Positions 9,635 through 25,667 of a stretch of DNA of 48,430 nucleotides are shown here, one piece after another. Location: positions 1-48,430 of the IMG/VR virus record IMGVR_UViG_3300010391_000214. One strand, written 5' to 3'. Origin of the DNA: a virus. The position numbers and the translations under genes are program-made. Every line of letters begins with the position of its first letter. Position 1 is the stretch's first letter. The notes below the pieces were generated by a model, which did no database searches, was not told the DNA's origin, and worked only from the letters and a program-made list of their open reading frames with translations.

Positions 9635-10885
9635 ATGACAGAACCAATCGGCGCATACACATACCAGGATTTGCTGACGCGCGTGGCGATCGAAGCCGGC
9701 AATGCGTACTACGGTACGACCGGCGTTGATCCGGCAATGGCCCCGGTCACGAACTTCCATGACTTCGATCAGGTATCCGGTGTCGTCCAGCGGGGGATCA
9801 AACGGTTTATTGACCTGGCCCCGCCGGATGGCTGGAACTGGCGGAAACGGATTTGTTCTATCCGGTTTCTGACAGTTCTCACAAAAGCGACTGCCCTAAC
9901 GACTTCGCCCGCGGCTGGGGACATCTTGACCCAGGCAACGACTGGTGCGACCCTGGTTGTGCGTTCGGTGTCTTCGGACAAGAAAACAGTCTATGGCACT
10001 CAGACTTCGGATGCGGTCTTCACGACGGGCTACACGGTATCCTCCAACAACACCGGAGCGACAATGAGTCCGGCCACCTGGACTCCCGCCACAGTAACCG
10101 CCGGATCAACTGCAATCGCATCCGATCAGGCGAGGTTCCTCATGCCGCAGGATTTCAGCGGCGTGCCGACCGGCAAGATCGCGTATGCCAAGAACACGGC
10201 GCACAACACGGAGATCGACCTGGTCCACGATAATGGTATTCGACTGGATCGGTCCTGTACCGTTGTCACCGGCTATCCGAGTCGGGTTGCGATCTTTCCC
10301 TATGGGGTTCGGCGGTATGAACTTCTGGTTGATCCGGCTCCCGTTGCGGCCGATGCCATTGAGATTCCGTATCAGGCCCACTTTGATCTGCTCCAGGTCC
10401 AGGGTGGCGTGGCGACCGCAGGTGCGGCGACCACATTGACCGATACGGTTCTGACGACCCGCGGGTACTTCCCCGACGATTACTTCAACGGATGGGTCAT
10501 TACTGTATTAGGTGGAACGGGAAGGTATCAGACAGCAACTGTAACAGATTGGGATATGTCAGATTCAAAGTTTACATTCAGTGCCCTGTCTGGTGGGTCA
10601 ACACCAGATGCAACAACGGTGTACATTGTCCAGCCCGCGAACAACTATCATCCCGCTGGGGCATCCTTTGATACGATGGTGCTGGGAGCATGTCTGGCGC
10701 AGGCAGTGTTGGATTTAGGTCTGGAAGACCAATCCGGCCGGGTCGCCGAATTCTTCAAGGTGCTGCTGCCCGCAGCCCAAGAGATGGATCGAAAGATCGC
10801 GGGGCGTTCCCGACGATTAGGGCTTATGTCAAATGGTCCGACCTATCCGCGCGAGCGGACCTGGAACGATGTAACATATTCATAA
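9635..10885 (+). CDS. Probable head-tail connector / tail adaptor carrying a shared beta module
   Basis: 416 residues. The helical N-terminus (YTYQDLLTRVAIEAG, then RGIKRFIDLAP) and helical C-terminus (LGLEDQSGRVAEFFKVLL) resemble adaptor proteins that plug onto the portal. Between them, residues ~95-153 form a Thr/Ser/Val-rich stretch starting GDILTQA and containing TVSSNNTGA. That stretch recurs in the protein at 13606, so it looks like an inserted module. The ring probably links the portal to the nozzle. Confidence 0.5.
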   Translation: MTEPIGAYTYQDLLTRVAIEAGNAYYGTTGVDPAMAPVTNFHDFDQVSGVVQRGIKRFIDLAPPDGWNWRKRICSIRFLTVLTKATALTTSPAAGDILTQATTGATLVVRSVSSDKKTVYGTQTSDAVFTTGYTVSSNNTGATMSPATWTPATVTAGSTAIASDQARFLMPQDFSGVPTGKIAYAKNTAHNTEIDLVHDNGIRLDRSCTVVTGYPSRVAIFPYGVRRYELLVDPAPVAADAIEIPYQAHFDLLQVQGGVATAGAATTLTDTVLTTRGYFPDDYFNGWVITVLGGTGRYQTATVTDWDMSDSKFTFSALSGGSTPDATTVYIVQPANNYHPAGASFDTMVLGACLAQAVLDLGLEDQSGRVAEFFKVLLPAAQEMDRKIAGRSRRLGLMSNGPTYPRERTWNDVTYS

Positions 10886-10894
10886 GGAGTACAC

Positions 10895-11452
10895 ATGGGT
10901 ATCACTGCTGATTTCCTCAAAAAGTGTCGCATCTTCATTCGCCAGGGCGAGGGGTTCCTGAAGAACCTGGACATCCCGATTCTGTCGATCTCGTTGGCCA
11001 GTTCGGGTGCGCCCCTGACCACCACAACCTCCACGAACCCCGGCCCGGCGTTGGTTGATACGAATGTCTTGGCCCTTCATTGGGATGCCAACACGGTCGT
11101 GGCCGCCGGGATTAAGTTCGATGTGCCCGACGACTATGATTCCTCGAAGGATCATTTGAAACTGCGGATGAAAGGCAAGATGGCCGGGTCCACGAATGTG
11201 ACCACTGGAATCGACGCGCTGGTTTACAAGAACATCAGCACGACCGATCTCGACCCCACCAAGTCGGGGTATCTGACGGCCACCGATTCGTGGATCGAGA
11301 TTGACCTGTCGGGGAATACGCTCGTTGCGGGCGACACTCTCCAAGTCAAAATCTTCCCAGAGGCCCACACGACCGACGCGCTCAACCTGAAACAGTCGAA
11401 GTGGGAATACCGCTCCACCCTGGTCTATGCCGACCAAAACGGAAGCCGCTAA
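10895..11452 (+). CDS. Hypothetical virion protein
   Basis: 185 residues with AAGGAG before the ATG. The N-terminus has a Lys/Arg-containing helix; the rest is beta-rich with regular hydrophobic/polar alternation and Asp/Thr/Gly turns, like a small jelly-roll or decoration domain. No family is identified. Its TAA overlaps the ATG of the next gene (TAATG), tying it to the tail cluster. Confidence 0.6.
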   Translation: MGITADFLKKCRIFIRQGEGFLKNLDIPILSISLASSGAPLTTTTSTNPGPALVDTNVLALHWDANTVVAAGIKFDVPDDYDSSKDHLKLRMKGKMAGSTNVTTGIDALVYKNISTTDLDPTKSGYLTATDSWIEIDLSGNTLVAGDTLQVKIFPEAHTTDALNLKQSKWEYRSTLVYADQNGSR

Positions 11453-11676
11453 TGAAATTACAGTTTCCAATTAGAGGAAAACATGTGGGTGGGCCTGCTT
11501 CCCAGCAGCCCACCCTTACTTCTCCTGCCCTGAATAATGTCCGCCCGATCTCCAACGAGGAAGGGCGGATGCGGGGCGGCCAACGACCCGGCCTCAAGAA
11601 GTGGGGAACAGGGACTTTGATCGGTGCTGCCAATCAGCCGATCGTCGCCATGTGTTCTGTGAGTAGCGTGATTTAA
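11452..11676 (+). CDS. N-terminal fragment of a split tail nozzle-type protein
   Basis: 74 residues, starting in a TAATG overlap and ending in another. It contains an RPISNEEGRMRGGQRPGL segment, the kind of N-terminal arm I associate with single large podovirus tail/nozzle proteins, and then stops after VAMCSVSSV. The C-terminal continuation appears to be the protein at 13606, with two Fn3-type genes lying between. I read this as one ancestral gene broken into coupled cistrons. Alone it is too short to be a folded tail protein. Confidence 0.55.
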   Translation: MKLQFPIRGKHVGGPASQQPTLTSPALNNVRPISNEEGRMRGGQRPGLKKWGTGTLIGAANQPIVAMCSVSSVI

Positions 11677-12056
11677 TGGCAGCACCGGCCCAAGTCACTA
11701 CGCCAGTACCCTCGACCGGGGCAACGGGAGTTTCCCCCACCCTGGTCCAAGTGTCGTGGGCGGCAGCGGCTGGGGCCACTTCCTACAATGTCTATTTCGG
11801 ATTGAGTGGGGCGTATGTCCTTGTGTCCGCGGCTCAGGCCGGGCTGACCTATGCGATGTCAGGGCATCTGACGCATGGAGCCGTGTACCAATGGCGGATC
11901 GACTCGAAGAATGCCGATGGGACGACAACCGGGGTAGTGTGGTCGTTCACGGTTCTGGCTTTAGTGGCCCCTATTCCCGACGAAGAGAATACTATTAAAC
12001 CACTGAATCATTTAGTGGTTGTAGCCAATGACCAAGTATGGTATGAGAGTGTTTGA
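11676..12056 (+). CDS. Fibronectin type III-like domain protein (cassette 1)
   Basis: 126 residues. Residues ~5-95 form one Fn3/Ig-like domain: a Pro-Ser-Thr lead, SWAAAAGATSYNVYFG as the B-C strands, and YQWRIDSKNADG...WSFTV at the end. The last ~20 residues (HLVVVANDQVWYESV) are unrelated to Fn3 and match the tail of the next protein. Both stop/start junctions overlap (TAATG, TGATG). Phage Fn3 domains commonly bind carbohydrate or help adsorption. Confidence 0.75.
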   Translation: MAAPAQVTTPVPSTGATGVSPTLVQVSWAAAAGATSYNVYFGLSGAYVLVSAAQAGLTYAMSGHLTHGAVYQWRIDSKNADGTTTGVVWSFTVLALVAPIPDEENTIKPLNHLVVVANDQVWYESV

Positions 12057-13606
12057 TGGCTGTCCGAACAATCGCCTCTAATGGTGGCACTGCGGTCGGG
12101 AATACGACGGTCTATGCGACCTCGCAGAATTTTACTACCCCTGACGCGACTTATAAACTCACGAAGATTGCCATCCCGCTCGCCAATAGCGACCCGCAGG
12201 CGGCCACGACGACCGCGGTTAAGATTTATAGTGTTGATGTAAATAATAAACCCGATGCGCTCTTAGCATCAATGGGCACAATCGCCTCTACCTCCCTCTC
12301 CACGACTTTTGTGAATAAGGAGTTTTCTGGCGGAACATGTGTCCTTGATCCGCTCACCGAATACGCGATTGTAATCTCTGTAACCGGGGATGCCGGATGT
12401 TCCGTTCGGTGGCAGGGGTCATCAACTGGAACGGGATTAAATCTTGCCAAAGCAACTTCGGGCAGCGAGTGGGCGGAAGATGGAACGCCGCGGGTGCATG
12501 TAGTTTACGGAACCTACCATAACCCGCCGCCCAAAGCCACAGCGCCCGATCCTGCCGATGATGCAGTCGATGTCTCGGCGGCCCTGGATATTGTCCTGTG
12601 GGAAACGAGTGGCCAGGAGGATAGTGTCGATGTGTACTTCGGATATGCAGGTTCCGCGGAACTGATAGAATCTGCCTGGACCGAAGGAAATTATTACGCG
12701 ATCGCCTTGCCATTAGAGGCCGGCCAAGAATATGAGTGGCGCATTGACACCACAAACGAGGCGGGTACTACCGCAGGCGATGTGTGGTCGTTTACTGTCG
12801 CGTTGTCTCTCACCCTTACACCCACGGCCCCCACCAACGCGGCCGTTGGGGTTGCGGTCGTAACCCCAGAGTTTACTTGGGCGTGCGACGGATTTGACCC
12901 CGAAACAATGGTGTTCAATGTTTATCTTCGGGAAGCGGATGATAGTGAATTTGTTTTGATCGCAGAAAATACTTCGGACCTTAGCACCATACTGCCGGGA
13001 AACCTCGTCTATAATACGGATCATGTGTGGCGTGTCGATGTCCTCGATGTGGAAGTGCCGGGTGTACCTCTATTGGTGGGAGATGAATGGACTTTTGACA
13101 CGGATGTATCACTGGTCCTAACCCCCACCTTCCCAACCCACGAGGCGGACGGTGTTCTTATCGCGCCGGCTGAGGGAGTGATTTGGGACTGCCAACCCGC
13201 AGTCCCCGATACACAGGGGTATGATCCCGCAACAATGGCGTTCGATGTATATTTTTCTTCGACGGGAGGTTTTGTTGGGGGGGAATCTCCCCTTAGTTCG
13301 GGGCAACCAGATTTAACTCTACCCCTCCCCTTCAATCTTTCCTATGGGTGGCAATACTATTGGAAGATCGTGGTGCGAGAACTTTCTACCGGCGCGGTCC
13401 TTCTGGAGGGGAGTGCATGGTCTTTTGATACACAACCCCTAATAGAATACCCCATTCCCCGATATCGAACTGTTCTCGCGCCCGGTCAACCACCTGGCGG
13501 AACGACGATGAGTGTTGCGACCGCAGAGAATTGTCTTGCGTCTATTAAGCGACTGGTCGCCGCTTCTCAAAACACAATCTGGTATGAATACGAGGCAGGT
13601 GTATAA
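12056..13606 (+). CDS. Jelly-roll plus three Fn3-like domains (cassette 2)
   Basis: 516 residues from ATG 12056, which overlaps the previous TGA; an in-frame TTG lies one codon earlier. Residues ~1-155 look like a beta-sandwich of the choice-of-anchor type. Three Fn3-like repeats follow (~160-250, 252-350, 352-465), with YEWRIDTTNEAGT...WSFTV matching cassette 1 closely. The C-terminus RLVAASQNTIWYE repeats the cassette 1 tail. The region uses fewer G/C third positions than its neighbours, consistent with later acquisition. It is probably a surface-exposed tail or adsorption protein. Confidence 0.7.
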   Translation: MAVRTIASNGGTAVGNTTVYATSQNFTTPDATYKLTKIAIPLANSDPQAATTTAVKIYSVDVNNKPDALLASMGTIASTSLSTTFVNKEFSGGTCVLDPLTEYAIVISVTGDAGCSVRWQGSSTGTGLNLAKATSGSEWAEDGTPRVHVVYGTYHNPPPKATAPDPADDAVDVSAALDIVLWETSGQEDSVDVYFGYAGSAELIESAWTEGNYYAIALPLEAGQEYEWRIDTTNEAGTTAGDVWSFTVALSLTLTPTAPTNAAVGVAVVTPEFTWACDGFDPETMVFNVYLREADDSEFVLIAENTSDLSTILPGNLVYNTDHVWRVDVLDVEVPGVPLLVGDEWTFDTDVSLVLTPTFPTHEADGVLIAPAEGVIWDCQPAVPDTQGYDPATMAFDVYFSSTGGFVGGESPLSSGQPDLTLPLPFNLSYGWQYYWKIVVRELSTGAVLLEGSAWSFDTQPLIEYPIPRYRTVLAPGQPPGGTTMSVATAENCLASIKRLVAASQNTIWYEYEAGV

Positions 13607-15117
13607 TGGCTGGAACAATGGTAGCAGTGGCAGGAGCGACGGTTGATACAACCGATCAACTCACGATGGCCGCGGGCCTCCAGAAAGCGTTTGTGGCAAA
13701 CGGGGCAACTCTGGGCGTGGTCGATTTCGCCAACACGAAGTTGGTCTGTTCGGCCCTGACCCTGCCGCCGAAAAAGGGCGACATTCTCACCCAGGCAGTG
13801 AGTGGGGCGGCAATGGTTGTGGATTATGTAAACGCGGTCGCAGCGACTGCCGTGTACGGCTTCACAACGACAACTACCCCCTTTAATACAACGAATACAG
13901 TATCCTCTAATAATGTCGGCGCCATAATGAATCCCGCGACATTCACACCATCGGCTGTGGTGGAAGGACGAACGGCCCCCCACTGGTACGCCTGGACGAA
14001 GTACCCTGGCTCGACGACGGCCATGCCGACGAAGGCATACCTCGTTTGTTTCTGGCGTGGGCGGGCCGTGCTCAGTGGCAATCCAGCCGAGCCGCACCAA
14101 TACTACATGTCCCGACAATTCAATCCGTGGGATTGGACTTATGGGGCGAACGATGCACAGAGTGCCTTCCGGGGCGGGAATGCAGATGCGGGCCAGGTCG
14201 GGGATATTGTTCGGGCGTTGATCCCGCGAAACGATGACTACATGTTATTCGGGTGCAACACGAGCATCTGGATTATGCAGGGTGATCCCTGTAGCGGCGG
14301 GCAATGCTACCGGGTCGAGGAAAATACGGGAGTCTATGGATCGCATTCGTGGTGTTGGGATGCCGATGGAAATCTGTGGTTCTGGGGCGATAACGGAATC
14401 TATAAACTGGTCGGCGGCAAAGGCCCCGCAGTCTGTATGTCCCTGGTCCCCCTCCCCCGCCTGGTGGCCGATGAGGATGCCAATCCCTCCACCCACCGCA
14501 TTACGATGGGGCTTGACCCGAACCGGGGTGGAATCTTCATCTCGATTACGAAATTATCCGACGGGACGAATTCCTGTTACTGGTATGATACCCGGACCCA
14601 AGGATTCTTCCCGGAAAGCTATCCGGCCCTGGATGGGGCCTATAGTCTCTTGAACCACATGGCGAATGATCCCGATGACCGGGGCCTGTTGGTCGGCTGT
14701 ACTGACGGATACATCCGCCAGTGGTCAACTGCCTCGGTCAGCGATGATGTTGGGGTTTCGACCCAGGCAATCGACAGTAAGGTTTTGTTGGGGCCGATCC
14801 CGGCTGATCCAAAGTCTCTGAAGTCCGCGGTTATTAACGATATTTTTGTAGAGGCGGCCGGTGGCGGAGTGAGCGGGTCCGAGACGGATTCCTCCCCGAT
14901 CACGGTGAATTTGTTCGTCTCCGATGTTGCAGAGAACCTCCTGTCCGATGTGGCCGCCGCTACTCCGGTAGTCTCGACAGTTTCCCGGCCCCTCGGTCCC
15001 CGCGTCACGAAGAAGAATTACCGATTGGGCGGACGATTTTTTGGCGTGCAACTCCGCAATAATACGCTGGCTCAATCCTGGTCGGCGGAAGAAGTTATCT
15101 TAGATGAAGGAAAATAA
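13606..15117 (+). CDS. Tail nozzle-type protein, beta-propeller-like, with shared module
   Basis: 503 residues. The body has repeated short strands with Trp/Tyr (LWFWGDNGIYKL, CYWYDTRTQGFF) as in the propeller-like tail hub or nozzle proteins of podoviruses. Residues ~58-115 (GDILTQAVSGAAMVV, then TVSSNNVGA) are the same module seen in the connector at 9635. The N-terminus reads as the natural continuation of the WYE tails of the two preceding genes. It probably closes the portal/connector channel. Confidence 0.55.
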   Translation: MAGTMVAVAGATVDTTDQLTMAAGLQKAFVANGATLGVVDFANTKLVCSALTLPPKKGDILTQAVSGAAMVVDYVNAVAATAVYGFTTTTTPFNTTNTVSSNNVGAIMNPATFTPSAVVEGRTAPHWYAWTKYPGSTTAMPTKAYLVCFWRGRAVLSGNPAEPHQYYMSRQFNPWDWTYGANDAQSAFRGGNADAGQVGDIVRALIPRNDDYMLFGCNTSIWIMQGDPCSGGQCYRVEENTGVYGSHSWCWDADGNLWFWGDNGIYKLVGGKGPAVCMSLVPLPRLVADEDANPSTHRITMGLDPNRGGIFISITKLSDGTNSCYWYDTRTQGFFPESYPALDGAYSLLNHMANDPDDRGLLVGCTDGYIRQWSTASVSDDVGVSTQAIDSKVLLGPIPADPKSLKSAVINDIFVEAAGGGVSGSETDSSPITVNLFVSDVAENLLSDVAAATPVVSTVSRPLGPRVTKKNYRLGGRFFGVQLRNNTLAQSWSAEEVILDEGK

Positions 15118-15866: not shown

Positions 15867-18167
15867 ATGGGCGCACCGAACCTCATACCGATCCCCCAGG
15901 ATGGTGACTGGCCGGCAGTCCGCAAGGCCCTTCAGGTTCTTGCTGCGCGGCTGGGACCGGGCGGAGCACCGCATTTCGCCGGCCTGGATGTGGATGTCCT
16001 AACGGCCGATGCACTCACTATCCCTGGCTTGTCTGGAGTTCTCCAGGCAACGGCCGGGGTAGTGTCCGGGTCCGCGCTTCACGCGGCGTTAGGGTCTATC
16101 GGGGCGAATGACCACCACAATCAGGCCCATGTTTTGAACGGGGCCGACCATACGGTATCGGGGCTGACTCCGGGCCACATCTTGACTGCCCTCACAGCAA
16201 CCACTTTCGGGTTCGCAGCCCCGGTGGACTTGGGCCTATCTTCCCTTACGGACCCCGGTGCAGATCGAATCCTGTTCTGGGACGAAACCGACAATGCCCT
16301 GAAGTGGCTGGGCATGGGGAACTCCGTCGCCATCACTGGCACGACCCTCGATGCGATCCAAGATATTCGCACCACGGCCGCACCACAATTTGCGGGCCTG
16401 ACATTAACGGGGGCGGCAACCGGGATTCTCCCCACGACGGGACCGGAATTAGCCACAAAAGAATATGTTGATCTCGCGACCACCCATTTGAATCGGTCCT
16501 ATTTCCTTCTGAACGCGGCCGGGGCGACTGGCGGCTATAAAGCCCTATCGGACACCCAATCCGTGTTGAGCAAGGCAACATTATCTGTGGCAGGGGCCAC
16601 GGACGCTCAGGTTCTGGGCGGGTGGATATTCCCGACCGTTTCTATCGCTGGGGAAGAATACCATCTGGGGAGGTACGGTCTTCACATCCACGCCCGCAAG
16701 ACGAATGTTACGAACCAAACGATTGCACTCAAATGGACCTTAGTGGAGCGGAAGGCGGATACCTCCGAGGTAACGGTGGGGACCAGTGAAACCTCCGGTA
16801 ACCTCACCGCGTCTGCAACAAGCTATGACCTTCATCTGAACATCGCGGCCGATTACGCAATCACGACAGGAAGTTATCTTGTCCTCGAGGTGATCGCCGT
16901 GGTTGCCGGGACTGGCGTGGCCCCGGATGTTGATCTGTATTATCAGGGAACGGAAGCATCTGAGATGGACGCTCCCGCTACCTCCAGTTTTTTCAACGAT
17001 GTGTATGTTCGATTGGATGGCCGGGGCAATTTAACTGAAGCCACATCTTCCGTCCTCACCATCACCGGCGGCACGAATGGAGTTCTGGGGGGCGTGTCTC
17101 TCCAAGTCAAACAGGCGGCAACCGGGCAATCGGGATACCTCTCGAACACCGACTGGAATACTTTCAACGGGAAGGCGGCGAAGACCGACAGGGAGATCAT
17201 CAATACCTTGCTGGGTGTACACATCACACTGGACCACTCGGTAGGTGCATATAAACTCCTGTGTGATGCAGTTGTGGACGCGATGGAAACGAATGGCGGG
17301 GTCGATGGCACGGTTAATCTCAGTGCTGATTACGATACCACAAATGATTGGCATAACCCCACTGTCGAAGCAGTAAGTCAATCACAGACCACGGCGACCT
17401 CCAACGGGAATATGGGCGATGTTGGTGGCGTAGAGACTCGATATGCCCAGACCTTCACCTTCTCCACCGCTTATCAATGCCCGCGTGTGGATGTTTATTT
17501 GAACGCGGCGAACGGCAGTCCAACAGGGAACATTACCTGTCGGATCGAAACGACATCCGGCGGGGTTCCTACGGGGACTTTGATCTCCGTAGGTGCGTCC
17601 ATTACTCGTGCGGCCGCGACCGGATGGGTATCATTCGACTTCAATAGTGTTCTTCAATTCGGCGTAGCGATACCGGCCTCTACGGTTTACGCCCTCGTAC
17701 TCGTGGTAGATAACCAAGCCACCGATAATTATTTCAAATGGGGTCGAATCGCAACCGGCGGGTATGCCAATGGTCAGGCGTGCGTGAGTGTGGATGGCGG
17801 GGCTAATTGGGCCGCCGATGGGTCAGCAGACATGGCGTTCAAGATTTACCGAGGGGGCAACATGCGGCTCCAATCCATCACATTCACTGCCAATACCCAA
17901 CCCGCGACCGCGAAAATTGTCATCCTTGAGTCGGATGATACCATCGTGTTGAACTCCGATATTACCGCTCAAGTATCGCGTGATGGGGGTACGACATGGG
18001 CCACTGTGACTCTGGCGAGCAAGGGCCTGCTCGACGCATCCAACTCTATCCTATATGGTTCGGCGGACGTGTCCGGCCAACCCGCGGGCACGTCGATGAA
18101 ATGGCGGATCGAAACCGCCGATGAACATGTTATACGAATCCGGGGCGTTGCCTTGGTGTGGGAGTAA
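15867..18167 (+). CDS. Tail fibre / receptor-binding protein
   Basis: 766 residues. The N-terminal ~220 have fibre-type sequence: DRILFWDETDNALKWLG, ITGTTL, APQFAGLTLTG and ELATKEYVD, all common in trimeric phage fibres. The middle (~220-400) is beta-rich. A second beta-sandwich around 510-665 (QTFTFSTAYQCPRVDVYLN, then WGRIATGGYANGQ) resembles choice-of-anchor or carbohydrate-binding folds and is the likely tip. There is no visible enzymatic depolymerase motif. It probably recognises the host surface. Confidence 0.75.
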   Translation: MGAPNLIPIPQDGDWPAVRKALQVLAARLGPGGAPHFAGLDVDVLTADALTIPGLSGVLQATAGVVSGSALHAALGSIGANDHHNQAHVLNGADHTVSGLTPGHILTALTATTFGFAAPVDLGLSSLTDPGADRILFWDETDNALKWLGMGNSVAITGTTLDAIQDIRTTAAPQFAGLTLTGAATGILPTTGPELATKEYVDLATTHLNRSYFLLNAAGATGGYKALSDTQSVLSKATLSVAGATDAQVLGGWIFPTVSIAGEEYHLGRYGLHIHARKTNVTNQTIALKWTLVERKADTSEVTVGTSETSGNLTASATSYDLHLNIAADYAITTGSYLVLEVIAVVAGTGVAPDVDLYYQGTEASEMDAPATSSFFNDVYVRLDGRGNLTEATSSVLTITGGTNGVLGGVSLQVKQAATGQSGYLSNTDWNTFNGKAAKTDREIINTLLGVHITLDHSVGAYKLLCDAVVDAMETNGGVDGTVNLSADYDTTNDWHNPTVEAVSQSQTTATSNGNMGDVGGVETRYAQTFTFSTAYQCPRVDVYLNAANGSPTGNITCRIETTSGGVPTGTLISVGASITRAAATGWVSFDFNSVLQFGVAIPASTVYALVLVVDNQATDNYFKWGRIATGGYANGQACVSVDGGANWAADGSADMAFKIYRGGNMRLQSITFTANTQPATAKIVILESDDTIVLNSDITAQVSRDGGTTWATVTLASKGLLDASNSILYGSADVSGQPAGTSMKWRIETADEHVIRIRGVALVWE

Positions 18168-19496: not shown

Positions 19497-22400
19497 GTGG
19501 GAATCAAAGACATCCAAGAAATGGTTAATGCGCGGAACGCAGAGCAGAGTCCGATGTTTACGGGAAGTATGGCTGGAGTGGCCGCTATGGTCGCCGCCCG
19601 GACACCGGAATACGCTGCTCCGAAGATCGACCGAAAAGCAGTATTTGCGAAACTCGATCTCGATGTGTCCTCGCTCACCAACGACGCGATTCATGGACCG
19701 AATGTAGTCATACCTCCTCCGGTTCGCATGATCTCGATGATGGGAAGTGATCGTCCTGCGACCCCGGAGGAAATCGCGAATGGGATGGGCCACGATGTGG
19801 CTCCGAAGGCATCGCCCCATGACCTATTCAGGAAGTCCGTCCAGAATATCATGGCCGCGGAAGATGACCCTGCCAATAAAGAAAAGAAGATAAAGTCTAT
19901 CCAGAGTGCCTACAAACAAAAACAGTACGAAGCGGAACTCCTCCCTGTCCAGACCTATTGGGACAACAAACTCGTTGAGGAACACGAAGCAGAACGACAT
20001 GCCCAGCGCGTGACCGGCTGGATTGAAGCATGGCAGCGATCGGGCTGGTGGGGCTATACCCCTGTCGCCCCGATCACCACGATGTGGAATAAATTCCGGG
20101 ACGATCCAGAACATGGACACCGGTTCAAATATGTTGAAGACAAGTGGACCCAGGGTGAGGCATCCCTGTTCAGTGGGGTTGCCAGCATATTCGGTGCGAA
20201 GGACTACGCTCGCGCGGCCTACCTCGCAACGAAGGCCCCCGAATTAGCCGATGCAGTCGATGCCGATTGGATTGATAAGGCCCTGGGTACGGCCGCATCC
20301 GCGGCCCCCTACATGATCGCGACCACCGTTGCCTCCATCGCAACAGGCGGAGCGGCTGGGATGCTGGGCCTGAGTGCAGCCGGTTGGGGTGCAATGGGCG
20401 GCGGCCTCGTATCGTTTGGGGTCGAAGGGAACAGTGCCTATCAAAATGCCATTGACGCAGGGGTTGATGAGGAAACAGCCCGGCAGATCGGATTCCAGAC
20501 CGGCCTCATCAACGCTGCAATCGAAGCAATTCCGTTCGGTAGCGGTATGAAGTACATCAAGATGGGCAAGAAGGCCGCCCCGGAAGTATTGAAGGACACG
20601 GCCCAGCGAATTCTTACGACGAAAATGAAAGCCGCCGGAAAGTGGACGAAAGAGCGTGCTATACAAGCGACCCAGGAAGCCCTCGAAGAAGCCGGCCAGG
20701 AACTTGGAACCATGCTGGGGGAAACCCAGTTCAAGGATATCAAGGGTAAGGAAGTTGTGGATCGCGTTATGGCGGCCGGCGCAGGTGGGTTCTTCCTGGG
20801 CGGCACGATGGGCATGGCGATGAGTGCGATGACCGCCGAGGGTGCAGCGAAAGCAGAAGCCGATGTGACTGTTAATGAGAAAGAACAAGCCCTCATCGAA
20901 CAGGCCATCGCGAATGAGAAGGTTCGGGGGCCGATCCGCTCCTCTCGCTTTTCGACTGCGGATGCAGAAACAGCGCGCAACGAGGGCATCGAAGCCACCG
21001 CTCTCTACCTCCGGAAGGCGGGAGTCGTAGATGAGGGCCAGATCAAACTCGAAGTTGATACCGTTCGCACCCTGGCCGACGATGTGAAGGATGACATCAT
21101 TACCCCGGCCTATGCCCAGAAACAACTGAAGGCGTGGGGTTACGGCGACAAGGCCACTCCAGATCAGGCGCGCGTCACCGCACGGTTTATGACTGACGGC
21201 GCGATCAAGATTTTCAATGGGGCTGATTCCGCATCGGTCATCCATGAACTTGGGCACAACCATTTCGATACCCTGGATAAAGCGTCACAGAAGCTGATCG
21301 AGGCCGAGGTCGTTAAGTACGAAGCCGATAATCCCGATACCACTTCTGCCTCCAGGGAACCTGGTGTTCCGCTCCGCCATATCAAGGAGCGATACTCGGA
21401 CCTGGTAGCGGATTATGCTGTGTCCACACGCATCCACAAGAAGGTGGGGGTCAACCTCCACAAGTTCTTGGGTGCGGCTCGTGATATGTGGCATCATGTG
21501 TTGGCTCGTGTCCTCAACATGCGGACCAACATCGCAGCCGGGCGCATGTCCAATCGGCTCAAGGAAATGCTGGCCGCCCCACTCATGGCCCCGGAAGTTG
21601 CCCCCATCGAACCGGCGGGTAAGTTTGTCCAGTACACTCGCCAGGGTCCGGATGAAGATATACCCCGTCAAGCCACTGGTCCGGCGGTTATTCCGAGCGG
21701 CCCGTCCGCTCCGGCCCAAGAGAGGGCTGGGAAGTTCGTAACCGCCGTCCCGCAGGGTCCGGACGCAGACCCGCTTCCCCCGGTCAGTCCCTGGAATCCA
21801 GCCCTAAAGCCCCGCCAGGGTCCGTCCTATCAGATGGTTGCCCCGCCCCAGGGCGGTGCAGTCACGGCCCCCCGCGCTCGCTATGTGGACGATATCGCGA
21901 CCGACAGCAAGAATGTATGGGTACGCCCGATCGGTGGAAACTACTCGATCGACAACAGCAAGCGCACCCTGCTCATGCAGTTCTCTGATCCCGCGGCCAA
22001 AGATACTCCCCTGTATGATTTTGTTGGGGAGCCGTCCTGGGTAGTCGGCATGGCAAAAAAATTCCCCGATGCCGATTTGTATATCGTCCGTGATCCAGGA
22101 GAAGCGAAACAATTCGTAGAAGAAAGCGGGTATCAGAAGATTACGGTGAATTCCAGCAATACCACGCCTGAACAACTGGCAGGACTACTCGATGGATTCT
22201 CCGGTAAAGTAAGCCAGGTAGATAAAGTACCCATAGGAAAAGATTATCGCTTCTTTGGGGGCGAACAACAGGCCGCAATTCTTTTTGCCCCGCCGCTCAC
22301 AAAGGAACAACTGGACGAGGCGCATGCTGTGTATGGGCTGCGCCCGCTTGAAAAGAAGGTGGCGATGAAGACTGCTCCGGTCGAGATGTCTGAGAAGATA

Positions 22401-25400
22401 GAACAGGGATTTATTCTCCCGGACGGACAAGTTCTTCCTGTTGGATTCAAAGAAACCCACCAGGATGTGGCGCAATTAGCGGGTCTTTCTATGGAGGCAT
22501 TGATTGAAGAAGGATCGGTTCGATTCCGGGTAGCGAAAAACTATGCCGGGACCGCCACAGAAATTTTAGTGGAGGCCGCGTCGCCCATGACGGCCGGGCA
22601 ACGCGATGCCCTGACTTCTTTTCTTGATATGCGGTTCGGGAAAAATGCCGTTATCTATTTTGATTCGCGGAGTGGGGATGGCGAATCAAGCAGTTGGATG
22701 TATGATAGCATAGAAAAAGTTGACGCTATCCTAAAGGATATGGACGCTCGCCTCGGTAAGCCGGTCGCGTCCTATGAACTCCGCCCCGCCGAACAGGAAT
22801 TTTCTGACCGCTACGATGGTGGGCGTAAGTTAAAACCGATGGATGAGGCCGGGTTCATCATGTCGAATGGTAAGGCGGTCGTCTTCCCGCAAAATGAAAT
22901 GACCCACGGCCTGGTGGCAGGATCGCCGGAGGAACGAAATGCGCTATACGCTGCGGGCGTGATTCGTTTTCGCCGCGGCACGGATGAGTCCCAATTCGCG
23001 GATGCCGAACCAGGTGAATTGATTATCGAGGCCCATCTTCCGATGACCTACGATCAACGCGAGGCCATCAAGACATATCTTGACGATAATTTCGGAAAGA
23101 TCAGGCGGGTTATTTTCGATGCCGCACCCCACAAGCGAGACGGTGGAACCCAGTCCTACGCTGGCGATGACGATGCCTCTGACACTGTGGCGGACATGCA
23201 ACAGCGCCTCGATTCGGCCCATTCCCAGGTCGCCCACTTCCAACTCCAGCGAGCCGATACCGCCCCGGTGTCTGTCGATCAGAAAATCCAGATGGGGATC
23301 ATCCCCGAACTGTTAGGGTTCAAAAAGGAACAGGCCGCCTCGCACCGGCAGTCTCTCACAGGCAAGGCCGACTGGAGTGCCATGAACTATGGCGAGGCGA
23401 AGAAGGTCATCGCCGATCTCCTGGAGCGTGCTCGTGCGAAAGGAATCCGGCTCAACGGGGAGAAGACTTTCGCAGACTGGCTCGCCGTTGGTATCCAGCA
23501 GCACGCTACCTCTCACACCGATCCGATCAACGCCCTCCGCCCTGGCGAACTGGCCTCCTGGTGGAAGCGAATCAAGAAGGGCATCCGAGGTTGGGATGTG
23601 GCCTCCACGCGAATCGAGCGTTTGTGCATGGAGTTGGGCGGCTATGAAAAAGGGTCGCTCTACAATGCGTTCTTCCTGAAGGTCCGCGAAGCAGCCGATG
23701 CGGGCGAGGTTGGGGCCATTGCACGCGAACAAGGATTCAAGTCCTTTATGGAAAACACCCTGGGACTGGCCCGCATGAAAGCTGTCCTCTCTACTAAACA
23801 AGAACAGGTTGTTCCTGGCAAATACCTGGACCCCAGCGAGCAAATGAGTTTCCTGATGATGGCGAAGAACGATCATGGTATGCGCCGGCTGACCTCCCCC
23901 ACCGGGCACAACTATTCGTCCCCCGAAGTGATCCAGGCAATCCGGTGGATCACCATCAATCGTCCGGATGTGGTGGTGGTCGCCGATTGGATGCTCGCCC
24001 AATACGAGGAACAGTTTATCCGCCTGGATGCGGCACACTTTGCAGCCACTGGTGAACATCTCAACAAGGAAGATTTCTATTCGCCCCTCTACCTTCGGGA
24101 TGTCGAATTGGAACAGCAGCACGACTACCTGGCTGATCTTATCGGTGCAGTGGAAAGCCAGTCCAACGCCCCGCATATTTCCGAAACGATCGACCGCGAG
24201 CAGAAGGCATCGCAGCCCGTCCACATGGACGCGGTTGAGAACTACCTGTTCAACTCGCGGCGTGTCGAGCGGTACATCGCTCTGGCTCCGTCTGTCGCCC
24301 GGTCAGCCAAAATCCTGAACAACCGTAACTTCAAGGCCGCCCTCAACGGGGCGACCAGTGGGTATGGTAATGTGATCCTGGGCGACTGGCTGCGTGATAC
24401 GGCTCGTGGCTACGCTGCTGAGGGCCAGGGCCTGCTCGACAAGACGATGCGGGTACTCCGCCGCAAGTCGATGGCCTATGTCCTGGGCGCGAAGTTCACC
24501 GCCAGTACGCGGCAGGTATTGTCCCTGTTCAAGACGATCGCCGTCGATCCGAAATTGATCCCGGCAATCGCCCAGAACCTTCTCCTCCACCCGATCTGGT
24601 CGTCCTCCTACCGCAAAATGGAGGCCGAAGTATTCGCCTCCTCCGCTATGATGAAGGCCCGTAGTTTCGACCGCATCGAGACACAGTTGAAACAGTCAAC
24701 CTCCGCCCGCAAGAAGTTGCAGGGAAAGACCCTCTGGGATGAGAAGATGTTGTGGACTCTGCGAACGATGGACCGGCACATTGCAGTGATATCCTGGAAA
24801 GCGTCCTTCGATGTGGCGAAGGCCCAGGGCATGGTGGATGCGGACGCTATCAAGTGGGCCGATGAAGTTGTCCGCACTACGCAGTCGATGGGTGAAGCAG
24901 TGGACCTCCCGGCATTCTTCCGAGGCGGGACACTGGCTAAGTTGCTCACCACATTTGAGAATGATAATAACCAGAACTATAACTACTGGCGGCATGATGT
25001 ATTCGGCCAGTACAAGACCGGCAAGATCGGGGTGGGTGGATTGTCCTATCGCATCCTGATGTCCTATGTAATACCGGCTCTGCTTATGGGGATGATCGGG
25101 CGGGGCGGGACTCCGGAAGATATGGAGGATGTGGCCACAGACCTGGCTACCTTCCCCCTCGCGTCCATCGTTCTTCTTGGTCGATGGTCCTATGCCGCAA
25201 TCAAGGGCTACAGCCAGGGCAGTACGATTGTGGATGTTCCGTTCACGCAGGCCGGCAAAGCCCTCCAGGAAGTGGGGAAGGGTAACTATGGGAAGGCCGC
25301 CCTTGAGGGTGCGAAGGCGGCCGCGGCATTCACAGGAACGGTCCCACAACAGGCGTTCACCACAACCCAGGGAGCGATCCATCTTATGACCGATGAGGAC

Positions 25401-25667
25401 AACAACGCGAACCTGCGGGAACTGCTCTACACCCGGAGTCAGTTGGGGTTACCAAGAAATCAGAGAGTGGTGGCGAAAAGAAGGGGAAGAGGCGATAACC
25501 CCCGAAATAGGGGGGTACTATTGGTAGGGTCCAGGGGAGATCGTCGATCCTGGGGCATCCTGGAGCGTTTTATTTTGGAGAACTTTGATGAAACCCACAG
25601 ACAAAGAAGAAGTGGTCGAAATAGCCGAACTCACTGTCCGGCGGTACTTCGATCACTTCCTCGGTGA
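19497..25667 (+). CDS. Giant internal virion / polyvalent protein with HELGH motif (3' end probably frameshifted)
   Basis: 2056 residues as read, from GTG 19497 after AAGGAG. Order: charged helices; hydrophobic Ala/Gly segment ~270-310; HELGH at 583-587, a possible zinc-metallopeptidase site; linker with two AGKFV...QGPD repeats (~706 and ~744); two copies of a ~140-residue domain (~968-1102 and ~1116-1258); a long helical region resembling large polyvalent phage proteins; hydrophobic segment near 1855. The last ~75 residues are odd. One extra G in the run at 25445-25448 would switch to a Lys-rich tail ending at 25498, before a hairpin. As written, the frame runs through that hairpin and over the next gene. 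It is probably ejected with DNA into the host. Confidence 0.75.
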   Translation: MGIKDIQEMVNARNAEQSPMFTGSMAGVAAMVAARTPEYAAPKIDRKAVFAKLDLDVSSLTNDAIHGPNVVIPPPVRMISMMGSDRPATPEEIANGMGHDVAPKASPHDLFRKSVQNIMAAEDDPANKEKKIKSIQSAYKQKQYEAELLPVQTYWDNKLVEEHEAERHAQRVTGWIEAWQRSGWWGYTPVAPITTMWNKFRDDPEHGHRFKYVEDKWTQGEASLFSGVASIFGAKDYARAAYLATKAPELADAVDADWIDKALGTAASAAPYMIATTVASIATGGAAGMLGLSAAGWGAMGGGLVSFGVEGNSAYQNAIDAGVDEETARQIGFQTGLINAAIEAIPFGSGMKYIKMGKKAAPEVLKDTAQRILTTKMKAAGKWTKERAIQATQEALEEAGQELGTMLGETQFKDIKGKEVVDRVMAAGAGGFFLGGTMGMAMSAMTAEGAAKAEADVTVNEKEQALIEQAIANEKVRGPIRSSRFSTADAETARNEGIEATALYLRKAGVVDEGQIKLEVDTVRTLADDVKDDIITPAYAQKQLKAWGYGDKATPDQARVTARFMTDGAIKIFNGADSASVIHELGHNHFDTLDKASQKLIEAEVVKYEADNPDTTSASREPGVPLRHIKERYSDLVADYAVSTRIHKKVGVNLHKFLGAARDMWHHVLARVLNMRTNIAAGRMSNRLKEMLAAPLMAPEVAPIEPAGKFVQYTRQGPDEDIPRQATGPAVIPSGPSAPAQERAGKFVTAVPQGPDADPLPPVSPWNPALKPRQGPSYQMVAPPQGGAVTAPRARYVDDIATDSKNVWVRPIGGNYSIDNSKRTLLMQFSDPAAKDTPLYDFVGEPSWVVGMAKKFPDADLYIVRDPGEAKQFVEESGYQKITVNSSNTTPEQLAGLLDGFSGKVSQVDKVPIGKDYRFFGGEQQAAILFAPPLTKEQLDEAHAVYGLRPLEKKVAMKTAPVEMSEKIEQGFILPDGQVLPVGFKETHQDVAQLAGLSMEALIEEGSVRFRVAKNYAGTATEILVEAASPMTAGQRDALTSFLDMRFGKNAVIYFDSRSGDGESSSWMYDSIEKVDAILKDMDARLGKPVASYELRPAEQEFSDRYDGGRKLKPMDEAGFIMSNGKAVVFPQNEMTHGLVAGSPEERNALYAAGVIRFRRGTDESQFADAEPGELIIEAHLPMTYDQREAIKTYLDDNFGKIRRVIFDAAPHKRDGGTQSYAGDDDASDTVADMQQRLDSAHSQVAHFQLQRADTAPVSVDQKIQMGIIPELLGFKKEQAASHRQSLTGKADWSAMNYGEAKKVIADLLERARAKGIRLNGEKTFADWLAVGIQQHATSHTDPINALRPGELASWWKRIKKGIRGWDVASTRIERLCMELGGYEKGSLYNAFFLKVREAADAGEVGAIAREQGFKSFMENTLGLARMKAVLSTKQEQVVPGKYLDPSEQMSFLMMAKNDHGMRRLTSPTGHNYSSPEVIQAIRWITINRPDVVVVADWMLAQYEEQFIRLDAAHFAATGEHLNKEDFYSPLYLRDVELEQQHDYLADLIGAVESQSNAPHISETIDREQKASQPVHMDAVENYLFNSRRVERYIALAPSVARSAKILNNRNFKAALNGATSGYGNVILGDWLRDTARGYAAEGQGLLDKTMRVLRRKSMAYVLGAKFTASTRQVLSLFKTIAVDPKLIPAIAQNLLLHPIWSSSYRKMEAEVFASSAMMKARSFDRIETQLKQSTSARKKLQGKTLWDEKMLWTLRTMDRHIAVISWKASFDVAKAQGMVDADAIKWADEVVRTTQSMGEAVDLPAFFRGGTLAKLLTTFENDNNQNYNYWRHDVFGQYKTGKIGVGGLSYRILMSYVIPALLMGMIGRGGTPEDMEDVATDLATFPLASIVLLGRWSYAAIKGYSQGSTIVDVPFTQAGKALQEVGKGNYGKAALEGAKAAAAFTGTVPQQAFTTTQGAIHLMTDEDNNANLRELLYTRSQLGLPRNQRVVAKRRGRGDNPRNRGVLLVGSRGDRRSWGILERFILENFDETHRQRRSGRNSRTHCPAVLRSLPR
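25498..25516 (+). terminator. Hairpin at the end of the giant late gene
   Basis: ACCCCC and GGGGGT pair around GAAATAG right after the TAA (25496-25498) of the alternative frame. Further inverted segments (CCAGG/CCTGG around GATCGTCGATC, ~25530-25555) follow before the next ribosome site. There is no long T run. Its place supports an intended stop at 25498 rather than 25667. Confidence 0.5.

Follow-up and report, generated by a model that had tools for sequence, protein, structure and literature searches.

A probable podophage tail nozzle kept in pieces around a cassette of exchangeable, hairpin-tailed modules

The 48,430-bp virus record IMGVR_UViG_3300010391_000214, analyzed over its whole length and called the window here, contains four consecutive genes that raise a question. 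Do a 74-amino acid (aa) protein, two module genes, and a 503-aa protein make up one tail nozzle in pieces and, if so, what is the cut used for? Phage receptor-binding parts are usually swapped as fibers or fiber tips. Here, a core tail protein is apparently kept in pieces clade-wide, and the cut seems to be where cargo with a common hairpin tag is exchanged. We consider it probable that the four genes encode one nozzle assembly, permanently cut past its N-terminal arm, and that the gap is a cassette for hairpin-tagged modules that would be translated by coupling, dock on the nozzle, and bind cell surfaces. The features are as follows.

11452..11676, + strand: predicted nozzle N-terminal arm, 74 aa, C-terminal end PIVAMCSVSSVI; kept in 68 loci and a separate gene in every resolved relative of the clade
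11676..12056, + strand: module 1, 126 aa, a single Fn3/Ig-like domain (Big_5, E 0.017) and a C-terminal hairpin (WYE1); like the modules of relatives L009, L023, and L001
12009..12053, + strand: WYE1 hairpin tail (LVVVANDQVWYESV region), score 24.7 bits (profile from body hairpins only)
12056..13606, + strand: module 2, 516 aa, a choice-of-anchor-R-like N-terminal domain, three Fn3-like repeats, and a C-terminal hairpin (WYE2); tblastn matches to the modules of L008, L009, and L023
13538..13588, + strand: WYE2 hairpin tail (IKRLVAASQNTIWYE), 25.9 bits with the same profile
13606..15117, + strand: predicted nozzle body, 503 aa, the remaining beta-propeller and C-terminal platform, beginning right past the WYE2 hairpin; from the model of the homologue L029 and its PDB matches
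13738..13977, + strand: small domain within the nozzle body; second occurrence in the upstream gene at 9878-10114 (52% identity, E 8.8e-16)

A sequence-only reading of this DNA had described four genes with stop/start overlaps at four junctions, and all of these are present: TAATG at 11450-11454, 11674-11678, and 13604-13608 and TGATG at 12054-12058, each a one-base overlap. The start of module 2 was taken as the ATG at 12056; the listed TTG at 12053 is an alternative further upstream. One-base overlaps also occur elsewhere in the window (3850, 5682, and 5948) and, thus, such a junction by itself is nothing unusual for this phage. The module genes had been described as Fn3 and jelly-roll genes. 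The Fn3 part stands on weak family matches and the modules of relatives; for module 1, these are the Big_5 match and a likeness to relatives' modules. The first domain of the gene at 12056, whose counterpart in relatives matches NF041539, can be called a jelly roll only putatively.

Relatives were collected with the major capsid protein (MCP; 25 IMG/VR matches) and then with the body (239 IMG/VR matches, 80 kept). This gave 79 distinct bodies at a 97% identity cut, and 68 loci had an arm and a readable gene chain from arm to body; these are the resolved loci. Sequence searches alone returned no named family for the body at 13606. The body and hairpin of L029, a homologue aligned together with the window body, were modeled from a 63-row alignment (predicted local distance difference test, pLDDT, 87.0; predicted template modeling score, pTM, 0.78). 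The top 11 PDB matches of this model were podophage tail chains (E 9e-14 to 1.5e-7), and the phages matched were SU10, Pa223, LME-1, VP1, A4, GP4, Carin1, crAss001, and P22. The best match was SU10 chain 7z4b_DW (E 9e-14), and the GP4 portal-tail chain 8jov_A was also matched. PHROG tail family 376 was matched by 32 of the 63 alignment members. As modeled, then, the 503-aa body is a podophage nozzle, with a platform and beta-propeller fold like that of solved nozzles. A single polypeptide running from arm to platform is not found in the window, where four genes take its place.

In the window's clade, each of the 68 resolved relatives encodes the arm by a gene of its own. In the distant relatives L024 and L025, arm and body lie in one gene; in hhalign comparisons, residues 8-77 were matched by the arm profile (E 1.8e-15) and residues 500-864 by the body profile (E 2e-60). 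The two pieces, therefore, correspond by homology to uninterrupted stretches of one intact protein. The search for phages in which the 11452 and 13606 parts form one gene found L024, L025, L111, L113-L115, L121, and L122 and, together with the body fold, bears out the proposal of a nozzle gene in pieces. In L113 and L114, the nozzle is compact and encoded by one gene (527 codons stop to stop) that comprises arm, one hairpin, and body without a module; L115 resembles them but extends past its contig end. L111, L116, L117, L121, and L122 carry inserts of 250-850 residues between the arm and the first hairpin, inside one gene. The site between arm and first hairpin accepts inserts widely and, in the window's clade, is also a permanent cut. 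It had been suggested that modules enter by splitting the gene. This did not hold, as all 68 resolved loci share the cut past the arm and outgroups hold large inserts in an uninterrupted gene. The split appears to be old and fixed, and modules would be exchanged there instead. Neither the one-gene outgroups nor the conservation of arm and body across divergent relatives fits a pseudogene reading, which was rejected. In distant L112 (2098-7233), an insert of about 1000 aa is joined to the arm, and the cut lies elsewhere, just ahead of the body, which has its own gene; this split seems to have arisen independently.

The sequence-only reading had also proposed a cassette site, and a comparison of cassette content between close relatives supported this: modules were replaced while the flanks agreed. 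Identities of body, arm, and modules were 92%, 92%, and 26% for L032/L039; 86%, 79%, and 10% for L029/L043; 82%, 93%, and 21% for L040/L041; and 77%, 70%, and 0% for L091/L093. Of 31 informative close pairs, which share members and are not independent, 24 lost DNA homology within 30 bp of the arm stop, and homology often restarted near the first hairpin. Between L032 and L039, homology ends 11 bp past the arm, restarts for the last half of the module up to the WYE1 stop, and restarts again 3 bases ahead of the WYE2 codons, with an extra L032 module between. The modules found between arm and body include choice-of-anchor-R-like, Fn3, LamG-like, sialidase-like propeller, and GP4-type fiber types. 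A gene for the Gp80 fiber I protein (PF23140, GP4-type) lies between the nozzle pieces in 11 loci (L028, L031, L058, L059, L061, L062, L067, L069, L082, L083, and L095); all 11 also have a second module, and the gene directly follows the WYE1 gene in most. These domain types and the Gp80 gene make it plausible that the modules are adsorption or surface-binding parts.

Other observations concern the cassette content. Seven relatives have a stop/start that interrupts an Fn3 domain at one position, just before the strand YxVYF (L001 5352, L032 2840, L033 4599, L040 7588, L054 7582, L070 7514, and L100 7581). HNH endonuclease genes were found in the gap in L067 and L102 only, and none is in the window cassette. 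The one in L102 (2103-2633) ends KICTVSTVA, a near copy at the DNA level of the arm 3' end, as if this gene had arrived with, or copied, the junction. In L067 (2587-3267 and 3649-4037), an HNH gene and a seeming second endonuclease gene in two open reading frames (ORFs) lie in the module region beside a split Fn3.

Both module genes had been said to end in similar tails. The tails LVVVANDQVWYESV and LVAASQNTIWYE are present, and their scores (24.7 and 25.9 bits) confirm the similarity, since the hairpin profile was trained solely on the nozzle-body hairpins of relatives and on no module genes. The best shuffled chain protein scored 6.6 bits, and outside arm-to-body intervals only 2 of 5281 background ORFs exceeded 8 bits, with L081, a locus not among the resolved ones, left aside. 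The hairpin forms the C-terminal end of 66 of the 98 intervening genes; elsewhere in them, only two weak near-terminal matches were seen. In the L029 model, it forms a confident strand pair with which the fold begins (residues 15-18 and 21-25).

Across the 68 loci, there are two hairpin copies in 51, one in 16, and three in one. The 16 one-hairpin loci are built as arm, then module-hairpin-body, although the place of L005 in this class is doubtful because its hairpin is weak. The 52 loci with two or more are built as arm, module 1-WYE1, then WYE2-body with or without a second module ahead of WYE2. Most relatives carry the counterpart of WYE2 within the body gene, as its first hairpin: it is fused to the body in 38 two-hairpin loci, as is the hairpin in one-hairpin loci (doubtful for L005). 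At this joint, fused relatives read ...YEDINVAAGTMVEL and split ones ...YEDI / MAAGTMVEL. The body gene is cut again right after WYE2 in 14 of the 52 loci, including the window. On the body tree, this takes about 12 changes, at least 11 of them forced by well-supported branches and, thus, the cut after WYE2 comes and goes. Both tails had been expected to join the start of 13606. WYE2 does continue directly into it, but WYE1 is an extra copy, as compact one-gene nozzles have a single hairpin. In the divergent L005 (15609-16114), two successive small genes end in the weakly hairpin-like VVYFGKA and VIYFGDV, and the body has no hairpin.

The last strand of the arm has V/I at one position in 12 of the 16 one-hairpin loci versus 0 of the 52 two-hairpin loci. 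This difference fits an arm that contacts the first hairpin; shared ancestry is an alternative explanation.

We propose that the arm and a hairpin assemble noncovalently with the body, as other split phage proteins do, and that WYE2 would complete the first blade, which 13606 continues. WYE1 may have arisen by duplication of a module-plus-hairpin unit and would carry an extra module on a duplicated docking tag. Each C-terminal hairpin would hold its module on the nozzle by strand pairing with the propeller and the last strand of the arm, leaving exposed Fn3, lectin-like, or propeller domains that may bind the cell surface.

Several points weigh against this proposal. The Foldseek TM-scores behind the nozzle matches are moderate (0.34-0.54) with large root-mean-square deviations. 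Some intervening genes lack the hairpin, namely gp80, HNH, and split Fn3 halves. Shared ancestry confounds the covariation of arm strand and hairpin number; among 5 independent contrasts on the tree, about 4 were concordant and 0 discordant (sign test p 0.125). The joined pieces were modeled in L034, chosen as a natural relative with all three genes in frame. The best PDB matches were again nozzles, but the arm and WYE1 fell below pLDDT 60 and, thus, the model does not support physical contact for either of the two. Finally, the relatives are all metagenomic contigs, known from sequence alone; INPHARED phages searched with the body, MCP, an outgroup nozzle, and a fused relative gave no match, and a scan of genome contigs with the body found no relative.

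One alternative explanation, which we think rather unlikely, is that WYE1 adds a blade or half-blade to an enlarged propeller, making module 1 an integral part of every protomer and not a docked accessory. Blade-like hairpins recur along the body sequence, exactly two copies are present in 51 of 68 loci, and the last strand of the arm varies with hairpin number, all of which would fit. However, copy number differs between close relatives (L091/L093 and L044/L053), which is hard to accept for an essential blade, and WYE1 was not placed in the L034 model.

Another possible explanation, which we regard as improbable, is that the tails are footprints of partial gene duplication and recombination, acting as homology arms for cassette exchange without a docking role, while the modules are attached elsewhere or free. 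The homology breakpoints near the hairpin and the likeness of the tails at the DNA level in close relatives are consistent with this. The hairpin, however, stays C-terminal while modules are replaced, across bodies only about 45% identical, and the body model includes WYE2 as a confidently predicted part of its fold.

From the arm stop to the next start, the spacing was -1 in 27 loci and +1 in 20, and the rest were 0, +2, +3, or more; starts were chosen heuristically, and the few long spacers may be miscalled starts. A Shine-Dalgarno-like motif preceded 69% of arm genes, 15% of genes past the arm, and 11% of background ATGs, and the window had none at either module start. Coupled translation is the likely mode of expression past the arm because such motifs are rare there (15% versus 69%), as expected for re-initiation; the junction spacing agrees with the earlier claim that translation is kept coupled. 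Ribosomes would terminate and then restart at the overlapping stop/start to reach the modules. We consider it very improbable that the pieces are instead joined on the ribosome, at least partly, by programmed frameshifting or stop readthrough into one long module-bearing nozzle. A single chain of arm, insert, and body does occur in outgroup phages, and in L034 the three genes share one frame with only stop codons between. However, the junction frames vary among relatives (-1, +1, +2, 0, +3, and some longer spacers), which argues against a programmed frameshift, and this candidate mechanism was rejected. No common slippery sequence was seen in the junctions inspected, by eye only, and nearly every downstream gene has a junctional ATG. 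The idea that the small gene is independent and the module genes are ordinary tail genes by chance next to the nozzle is largely refuted, since L024, L025, L111, L113-L115, L121, and L122 encode arm and body together in one gene and several relatives have modules joined in frame to hairpin and body, even though the arm is separate throughout the window's clade.

If the hairpin docks, as we propose, the locus would show how a ring protein gains and loses binding domains without rebuilding, and would suggest a short portable tag for protein display on phage tails. A bolder version can be offered only tentatively. In such a plug-in system, any domain with a C-terminal blade hairpin could be captured on the nozzle by strand complementation, modules could be added, stacked, or swapped without remodeling the nozzle, and the six protomers might carry different modules.

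The SU10 nozzle gp17 is one chain with a platform and a beta-propeller, and Ig-like domains lie between blades 2 and 3 (PMC9509320). It resembles the present system as a platform/propeller nozzle with extra Ig-like domains and is the best PDB match of the L029 body. Its gene is one 1005-codon ORF in which arm and first hairpin, read by eye, seem to be joined directly, whereas the window has an insertion there and the gene is cut at that point. Arm and body sequence profiles gave nothing significant against gp17. The idea that the module slot of the window is the SU10 Ig-domain slot was dropped, as by eye the small domain within the body, not the module slot, is the counterpart of the SU10 insert. 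The GP4 nozzle and fiber I (gp80) are also similar, through the 8jov_A match and the Gp80 genes of the 11 relatives, but the window cassette itself has no Gp80 gene. T4-like phages have split genes with reassembling products; splits caused by homing endonucleases, such as nrdA/mobE of Aeh1, leave an essential gene in two or more pieces, and UAAUG coupling was noted for mobE (PMC2988022). HNH genes lie within two cassettes here (L067 and L102). In contrast to such splits, structural modules are exchanged at this gap clade-wide and bear a duplicated hairpin tail, and most cassettes lack an endonuclease. Ig-like and Fn3 domains are added to phage structural proteins, in some cases through programmed frameshifting. 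The modules are similar to these as promiscuous beta-sandwich domains decorating a tail protein, but they are separate coupled genes with a common C-terminal hairpin and junctions unfit for frameshifting. No description of a nozzle cut that serves for module exchange was found in the literature searched, whose coverage leaves out most subscription journals.

Three further observations were made in the window. Directly 3' of the structural genes is a 2056-aa ORF (19497-25667) with no Pfam match at E 0.001. In the product of a tail-fiber-like gene (15867-18167), residues 509-653 show a weak similarity (28% over 154 columns, E 0.025) to the first domain of module 2. The upstream gene at 9635-10885 shares the small domain of the nozzle body (9878-10114 and 13738-13977), and the L013 body holds two copies; this looks like a mobile domain that moves among neighboring tail genes.

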